Shown piece after piece: positions 7,297-63,119 of a DNA stretch of 64,000 nt. Under the pieces are notes generated by a model. That model was given only the letters and a program-made list of their open reading frames with translations, had not been told where the DNA came from and ran no database searches. The DNA comes from Porphyromonas cangingivalis. GTDB lineage: Bacteria > Bacteroidota > Bacteroidia > Bacteroidales > Porphyromonadaceae. The DNA is taken from the NCBI RefSeq assembly GCF_900638305.1, contig NZ_LR134506.1:930001-994000 (forward strand). The letters are read 5' to 3'. The translations under genes were made by a program, and so were the position numbers. The stretch's first letter is position 1. Every line of letters starts with the position of its first letter.

Positions 7297-7406
7297 GTCA
7301 AAAAAAGTCGTAGAACTCGATATCGAAGATCGTAAGATTTGATCTCGCAAGTCATATGATTTAATCTCGAAGGTCGTATAGCTTGATCTCGCAAGATATA
7401 TGATCT
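7297..7406. repeat. tandem 22-bp repeat array, family A
   Basis: Four full units at 7319-7340, 7341-7362, 7363-7384 and 7385-7406 follow the pattern GATCTCGCAAGnCnTATGATTT, with a partial, degraded unit at 7297-7318. The spacing is exactly 22 bp with no insertions. The array lies in the 448-bp gap between nusB and susD, whose only other contents are the palindrome at 7191-7264 and the nusB promoter. A second array of the same family is at 35060-35135. Confidence 0.8.
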
Positions 7407-21960: not shown

Positions 21961-22026
21961 AGGAGAAAATACTCTGTACAAGGACAGAATGTTTGCCGGC
22001 ACGGGACAAAATGGATTCTGTCGCAA
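21961..22026. repeat. 22-bp repeat array, family B (three units)
   Basis: Units at 21961-21982, 21983-22004 and 22005-22026 show degenerate CAGAA-N4-TTCTG dyads (GAGAA-AATA-CTCTG, CAGAA-TGTT-TGCCG, CAAAA-TGGA-TTCTG). The array is in the 474-bp gap 21697-22170 between the TPR and EF-G paralogue genes. That gap also holds a small hairpin at 21946-21963 and the EF-G paralogue terminator. Confidence 0.65.
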
Positions 22027-35059: not shown

Positions 35060-35135
35060 GTCCATGAAGGCGACAAATCGAGTCGTTAAACTTGATAACG
35101 AAAGTCGTTAAACTTGTATCATCAAGTTTAACGAC
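35060..35135. repeat. 22-bp repeats of family A, forming a terminator-like hairpin
   Basis: Units at 35082-35103 and 35104-35125 share GTCGTTAAACTTG; a weaker unit precedes at 35060-35081. The right end, CAAGTTTAACGAC (35123-35135), is an exact inverted copy of 35104-35116 and is followed by T7, so units 2 and 3 fold into a plus-strand terminator. Aligned in register, they match the array at 7297-7406 at 14-16 of 22 positions. The array lies in the 305-bp gap 34877-35181, which has no gene. Confidence 0.7.
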
Positions 35136-35181
35136 TTTTTTTGAGAACTCCTGACAGGGATAAAGAGAGAAGAAGACCAAA

Positions 35182-40162: not shown

Positions 40163-40228
40163 GACAGAATGATTTCTGTATCGCAACAGAAAATATTCCG
40201 ACACGACACAGAATGGACTCTGTCGACT
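40163..40228. repeat. 22-bp repeat array, family B (three units)
   Basis: Units at 40163-40184, 40185-40206 and 40207-40228 centre on CAGAA-TGAT-TTCTG, CAGAA-AATA-TTCCG and CAGAA-TGGA-CTCTG, each 22 bp apart. The array lies in the 513-bp gap 39981-40493 between aspS and tRNA-Asp; apart from the aspS promoter and the tRNA terminator, nothing else was recognised there. Confidence 0.75.
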
Positions 40229-40451
40229 GACAAAACACAAAAAATAATAGACTACAATACCTACAAAGATCTTTGGATAAAAGGGGGATAGTGTACTGTG
40301 GGTGTGTCGGGGCTTAAAGAAAGGATGATGAAGTCTATCTCAAAAAAGGCCAATACATAATCATCCGAAAGAGAAAGAGCAACAATGTGGTGAGCAAAGC
40401 CTCATCAGCCCCATGACAAATGGTATAGATCACACGTGGAGACAAGCATAA

Positions 40452-58576: not shown

Positions 58577-58642
58577 ACATCACAGTTTTCTGCCCCGAGA
58601 CAGAACATATTCTATCGGACACCAGAACACATTCTGTCGAAG
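58577..58642. repeat. 22-bp repeat array, family B (three units)
   Basis: Units at 58577-58598 (degraded), 58599-58620 and 58621-58642 with dyads CAGAA-CATA-TTCTA and CAGAA-CACA-TTCTG. Lies in the 275-bp gap between the PepSY and DUF5020 genes. Confidence 0.7.
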
Positions 58643-58777
58643 GACATACCCCTCTGCATTAGGCTTATCACGTTAATTATCGCTTACAGCATAGCTACTC
58701 TTTGTGAAAAGTCCTAAAAAGAGAGAGCTTTCCGATGCCCTTTCGACATAAGATTTAGTACAATTAAGAAATTACAT

Positions 58778-63031: not shown

Positions 63032-63119
63032 CAAGGCCAGCATTCTGTGGGAGGGCAGAATGTTTTCTGTCCCATGTCAGAACGCTTTCTGTCCTGCTTC
63101 GTAGTATATTCTGTCAAGG
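63032..63119. repeat. 22-bp repeat array, family B (four units)
   Basis: Units at 63032-63053 (degraded), 63054-63075, 63076-63097 and 63098-63119 (half-dyad). The middle ones carry exact dyads CAGAA-TGTT-TTCTG and CAGAA-CGCT-TTCTG. The array lies in the gap 62934-63525, between the DUF2156 start and rpmB, upstream of the DUF2156 gene. Confidence 0.8.

Follow-up and report, generated by a model that had tools for sequence, protein, structure and literature searches.

Intergenic arrays of 22-bp palindromic units in Porphyromonas cangingivalis: putative chromosome-wide binding sites for a dimeric protein

The stretch of DNA analysed here (the window) comprises 64,000 bp of the Porphyromonas cangingivalis chromosome, which is represented by a single contig of 2,404,857 bp (G000; the window is C1:930001-994000). 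It contains four arrays of a repeat that we refer to as family B, all of which were found close to where they had been predicted from the window's letters and all of which are intergenic. The element at 63043-63115 (coordinates are given without strand throughout) has a left half-site TTCTG (63043-63047), two dyads (63054-63071 and 63076-63093) and a degenerate third one (63098-63115), and the element at 40163-40235 has three dyads (40163-40180, 40185-40202 and 40207-40224), a right half-site GACAAAA (40229-40235) and no clear left half-site. Two dyads at 58599-58616 and 58621-58638 are flanked by half-sites TTCTGCC (58588-58594) and GACATAC (58643-58649) in the element at 58588-58649, and the element at 21961-22022 is composed of a degenerate first unit (21961-21978) and two imperfect dyads (21983-22000 and 22005-22022). 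At 21961, 58577 and 63098, the arrays end in a degenerate unit or a half-site. The exact motif CAGAA-N4-TTCTG occurs only four times in the window (at 40165, 58623, 63056 and 63078; 0.16 expected); the remaining dyads are altered, and the array at 21961 carries no exact dyad.

Pairs of dyads one 22-bp step apart (up to three mismatches) were found at 144 places genome-wide compared with none for a reversed control pattern, so the arrays recur outside the window, and exact single dyads numbered 102 compared with 10 for the control. We retrieved the detected arrays with about 3 kb of flanking DNA on either side (575,829 bases including the window, or 24% of the genome, which hold as many exact dyads as the whole genome, 102) and ran a symmetric weight matrix on these stretches. 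By this measure, the chromosome of 2.40 Mb has at least 82 arrays with two or more dyads, a count that may lack some degenerate arrays remote from those already known; 51 have three dyads, 28 have two and 3 have four. Of the 139 spacings no longer than 120 bp, 132 equal 22 bp exactly, the others being 23 bp (three), 44 bp (three) and 47 bp (one). The 33 singletons found are fewer than the roughly 45 sites that chance would give at the same threshold, and two of them score above 16. Real single dyads are thus almost absent, apart from these two strong ones, and the dyad is not as common singly as at the 22-bp spacing. CAGAA-N4-TTCTG at 22-bp steps is therefore a genome-wide element and a larger one than first reported.

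The original prediction took the conserved unit to be a 14-bp dyad at a 22-bp step. The step held, but the dyad proved too short: in the weight matrix the unit is an 18-bp palindrome, GACAGAA-WRYW-TTCTGTC, plus a 4-bp spacer. Alignment of the 82 arrays on their best three dyads shows an element of three such palindromes framed by weaker half-sites, a left TTCTGTC and a right GACAGAA, outside which information is near background. Over its full length of about 84 bp, the element thus has eight half-sites of 7 bp (GACAGAA/TTCTGTC) whose direction alternates, with one every 11 bp, although individual arrays, including those in the window, are often incomplete. Inner arm bases carry about 0.4-1.8 bits, the outer half-sites 0.2-0.6 and the centres 0.3-0.5; the arms are conserved and the centres and spacers are not. 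Conserved arms and varying spacer bases had already been described from the window arrays.

The genome has a second family of 22-bp units, family A, with hairpin-like AAGTC-N4-GACTT dyads. One array lies at 35067-35137 of the window, with a T-run at its end, and the sequence at 7336-7404 looks related to it by eye only. Family A has 119 two-dyad places genome-wide compared with one for its control. Within one of its arrays, the centres recur directly or inverted, which is not the case in family B, and neighbouring centres score 3.67 compared with 2.97 when shuffled (36 pairs hand-picked among the matches listed). A long family A array at C1:812817-813006 has about nine near-identical 22-bp units and is minisatellite-like.

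We compared the positions of the arrays with a null that is uniform along the chromosome rather than restricted to gaps. Across 83 family B places (the 82 arrays and one strong single dyad), no interval is shorter than 4.4 kb, compared with 11.5 expected. Family A has two such intervals versus 5.5 expected (P = 0.07; 57 places, hand-collapsed among the matches listed), and the two families together have 11 versus 31.5. Below 1 kb, the combined set has 6 intervals versus 7.9 expected, and its overall CV is 0.89 (P = 0.11). Clustering of family B at the origin or terminus was not significant (Rayleigh p = 0.17; scan statistic P = 0.08-0.42), and we rejected the reading of the arrays as origin or terminus markers for this reason. 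Judged by GC skew in the fetched stretches, the origin is near 1.65 Mb and the terminus near 0.57 Mb, yet dnaA lies at 328 bp.

Sequence B is nearly confined to the source species. With up to three mismatches, the 144 places in G000 compare with one in the sister species G007 and with zero or one in each of the other genomes among the 38 searched, except for six in G027, in three places with similar arms. A profile search (E ≤ 0.001; first 150 candidates per genome scored) detected family B in 2 of 38 genomes, G000 and G007. Exact two-dyad matches were absent from phage contigs and from the contigs of other species, a search in which near records were possibly left out and degenerate arrays are invisible.

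The geometry is much more widespread than the sequence. A scan for alternating half-sites every 11 bp, whatever their sequence, recovered 75 of the 82 family B arrays plus eight other places in G000, all family A by eye. Samples of 400 kb from G002 and G012 contain the same geometry with other sequences, and 22 bp is by far the commonest step: with the score set at 36 of 42, each has 28 period-22 arrays, compared with 11 and 9 at step 21 and 4 and 0 at step 23, respectively. Period-22 arrays were also found in 12 of 19 family relatives sampled at 20 kb (20 arrays in 20 stretches) and in none of 20 genomes that each represent a different Bacteroidales family outside this one. A looser 11-bp score gave eight matches, mostly AT-rich, in 5 of these 20 genomes and one more in a later sample. 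The units of G001 (ACTAATACCGGTATTAGT plus 4 bp) and G023 (ATAAGTC-N4-GACTTAT plus 4 bp) are built as 18 + 4 bp like that of family B. There is thus a family-wide 22-bp lattice with other sequences, which suggests a protein family with fixed assembly geometry and drifting specificity.

The sister species, whose DnaA is 87% identical to that of G000, allows gaps to be compared directly. We found 17 arrays in 180 kb of G007, including its sole family B array; the others are A-like by eye. Extrapolation of this density gives about 200 arrays for G007. In both sisters, the cobT-cobS gap holds a family B array; both arms of the second dyad in G007 differ symmetrically from those of G000. The cobT-cobS gap of another record (L298) has no array. 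Among 16 orthologous gaps that measure 150 bp or more in each genome (shorter and cut gaps were left out), G007 has an array in 7 of 11 with family B in G000 (six of them A-like) and in 0 of 5 without (Fisher p = 0.034), but gap length confounds this test because an array lengthens its own gap, and the two family B loci dropped by the filter have no array in G007, which makes the former fraction 7/13. Co-occurrence counted by gene ends gave [[6,0],[4,9]] (p = 0.011). No family B remnant was seen in three gaps aligned directly between the sisters, which align poorly. The spacing of G007 arrays is more regular than that of random choices among its 50 gaps (CV 0.47 vs 0.78, P = 0.0096; minimum distance 3.5 kb, P = 0.014) at a threshold that matters, as looser settings add weaker matches about 1-3 kb from others. 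Gene-for-gene co-occurrence with arrays of more distant relatives was not significant ([[30,12],[2,3]], [[17,14],[1,3]] and [[16,8],[3,3]]; each p > 0.3).

Not every 22-bp family behaves like family B, since the families of G002 (AACACGTTTACCG) and G012 (CCACGTGG) have near-identical copies and common flanks and some relatives' families form long homogeneous runs (all by eye). Homogeneous 22-bp arrays of about 17-23 units occur in G002, which is of the same genus, at L136:2934-3440, L138:7408-7780, L140:7693-8180 and L153:9993-10450; neighbours scanned at three of these long arrays are metabolic, tRNA-modification or transport genes. We considered the genes beside five long G002 arrays as sources of cognate proteins and rejected them; the ten scanned are mostly housekeeping genes, with one phage integrase. 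The CCACGTGG arrays of G012 (L155, L156, L160, L161, L162, L165, L170 and L173) are paired, with starts about 108-130 bp apart around a common core near CTTCGGAGGAAATGAA (by eye), and are like a composite mobile element.

It is mainly because these families look mobile that we keep the possibility that family B arrays are old copies of a 22-bp element that is dispersed and either mobile or self-amplifying, with a lattice produced by transposase binding or copying and arms that the enzyme still recognises. The contrast between one array in the sister and 82 in G000, which indicates that family B rose or fell quickly, is also consistent with such an element. Within G000, however, the free bases have hardly been copied between arrays (mean likeness 8.37 of 20 vs 8.20 in column shuffles), with a slight excess of similar pairs (23 vs 12.3 with at least 14 bases alike; 2 vs 0.25 with at least 16). 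Homogenisation within arrays was not found either, adjacent centres and spacers being no more alike than random pairs (for neighbouring centres, 2.15 vs 2.13 of 4 when shuffled, inverted matches allowed; 164 pairs). MITEs are associated with a target duplication, and no consistent one was found at the array flanks, whose identity to each other is near chance (the best excess, 6 vs 1.5, is one of many offsets). The original prediction had named a mobile minisatellite as one option and had suggested looking for inverted repeats and target duplications at the array ends; with units not homogenised, copy number near-fixed and flanks of this kind, G000 offers that option no support. The Y1 tyrosine transposase PF01797, the sole transposase family searched, is present in 7 of 38 family genomes but has no match in G000, and the arrays avoid each other. 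A mobile origin of family B thus seems to us rather unlikely.

Alternatively, the arrays might be operators of a large regulon, at which a bound protein represses or activates the adjacent genes. Their symmetric dyads are operator-like, and of the 75 clusters that could be classified among 84 examined for placement (the 82 arrays and the two strong single dyads), 42 in tandem and 25 in divergent gaps are upstream of at least one gene. These numbers, together with 8 in convergent gaps, nevertheless do not depart from those expected from intergenic bases (43.0, 20.5 and 11.5, respectively; p = 0.36) or from gap numbers (p = 0.31), so that convergent gaps are not significantly avoided. Of the remaining clusters, six overlap a mechanical ORF, in every case close to where its start is called, and three have no called gene on one side. 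The starts of 87 complete genes face an array; the 83 of them that encode 80-900 aa were scanned and match 140 Pfam families, each in no more than two genes; no neighbour family recurs and the targets are not functionally coherent. The placement of family B arrays is independent of transcription direction and gene function, and the palindromic sites are spread along the chromosome irrespective of genes. Of the predicted operator array, a site for a dimeric protein agrees with these observations and an ordinary gene-specific operator agrees with them less well, and we regard a regulon as unlikely.

If the arrays acted as RNA, changes in the two arms should compensate each other. Summed over the seven arm positions, doubly changed pairs numbered 70 versus 69.8 expected. 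At three positions they are at or below expectation (24/26.0, 18/26.3 and 8/8.2, observed/expected), and at the other four they exceed small expectations (8/4.2, 4/2.0, 2/0.6 and 6/2.5), with 8 of these 20 pairs complementary. At arm position 4, the right arm alone is changed in 44 dyads, the left alone in 31 and both in 8 (8.2 expected); 7 of these 8 pairs are complementary, but independent transitions would probably also give this result. Overall, arm changes are independent. The window arrays do fold somewhat better than shuffles as single strands (z = −0.85 to −3.09 in five folds of the four arrays, with no common structure), and family A, which shares the genome, is hairpin-like and has centres that are repeated or inverted. 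We nevertheless consider it very improbable that the arrays are terminators or processing hairpins built from short stems in tandem, given the independence of arm changes, a consensus that lacks a U-run, the 25 of 75 clusters in divergent gaps and the lack of any Rfam match at the window arrays at the gathering threshold (three tRNAs are the sole window matches). An orientation signal in the spacers was not convincing (EM likelihood −1353.8; control mean −1398.5, sd 29.3, best control −1329.7).

The conserved arms, the independence of their changes and the lack of homogenisation, target duplications and common flanks are more in keeping with DNA sites of a dimeric protein than with a minisatellite, a MITE or an RNA hairpin. 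The dimeric protein of the original prediction agrees with the symmetric 18-bp dyads, their helical phasing and arms that change independently; geometry, symmetry and independent arms together point to a dimeric DNA-binding protein, and indifference to transcription direction and gene function, combined with mutual spacing, points to a chromosome-wide role rather than a regulon. We therefore favour, with about even confidence, the reading of family B as putative chromosome-wide binding arrays with a conserved lattice, fast sequence turnover and a role as structural anchors. Each element would be a double-stranded DNA binding array on which a dimeric protein docks at the 18-bp palindromes. With half-sites that alternate in orientation at every helical turn (11 bp), adjacent dimers may share one face of the helix and assemble cooperatively into a short filament of some three to four dimers. 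Rather than serving particular genes, the arrays would be spread along the chromosome at a kept minimum distance, possibly as loop, supercoil-domain or nucleoid sites. Protein specificity would change fast between species by co-evolution while the 22-bp geometry stays, so that array sequences would be species-specific but would occupy, at least in part, the same intergenic gaps.

More tentatively, and with the balance against it, the array slots themselves might be conserved in geometry and partly in position, their recognition sequence being rewritten between sisters along with a fast-evolving protein in a PRDM9- or centromere-like manner. We considered HU-HIG, which we take to be a candidate binding-protein family, and rejected it as the binder; its copy number (3 in G000, 3 in G012 and 17 in G017) does not visibly track the arrays. 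To our knowledge, little is known of chromosome organisation in Bacteroidales. If binding arrays of this kind exist, they would offer a direct handle on a DNA-organising protein in this order and a natural experiment on protein-site co-evolution between sister species.

Among the matches listed (titles and starts of abstracts), no description of these 22-bp arrays was found in an open-access subset of the literature. BrickBuilt of P. gingivalis, which had been proposed as a possible relative, shares with family B short tandem repeats, intergenic location and the genus, but it is described as a MITE with a 23-nt repeat, IS-type terminal repeats, a leader and a tail (PMC4596501); family B has a 22-bp unit of another sequence, no common flanks and no terminal inverted repeats or leader and tail that we could find. 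The TAACTGA heptamer repeats of Beggiatoaceae, Cyanobacteria and some Bacteroidetes also occur as many intergenic arrays whose neighbouring genes show no functional pattern, but they are 7-bp direct repeats close to start codons in the main genome, with one sequence common to distant phyla (PMC4679880). REP/BIME sequences with their RAYT transposases are likewise many intergenic palindromes per genome, whose sequences are host-specific and whose orientation alternates inside mosaics; in the Stenotrophomonas case, REPs are defined by a GC-rich, perfectly complementary palindrome that follows a GT(A/G)G head (PMC2817692). Compared with that definition, family B has no such head, an AT-rich centre, arms that do not covary overall and an 84-bp half-site lattice, and its genome lacks the cognate Y1 transposase of a REP/RAYT system. 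It also differs from a minisatellite (VNTR) in that its units are not homogenised; between loci, arrays mostly have two to three dyads. Noc, SlmA, MatP and ParB are dimeric structuring proteins with palindromic chromosomal sites, mostly single and biased towards or away from the origin or terminus. Family B differs from these sites in its three-dyad arrays, its lack of significant bias and a sequence that is not kept in the sister, but it would resemble them as palindromes scattered along the chromosome for a putative dimeric structuring protein.
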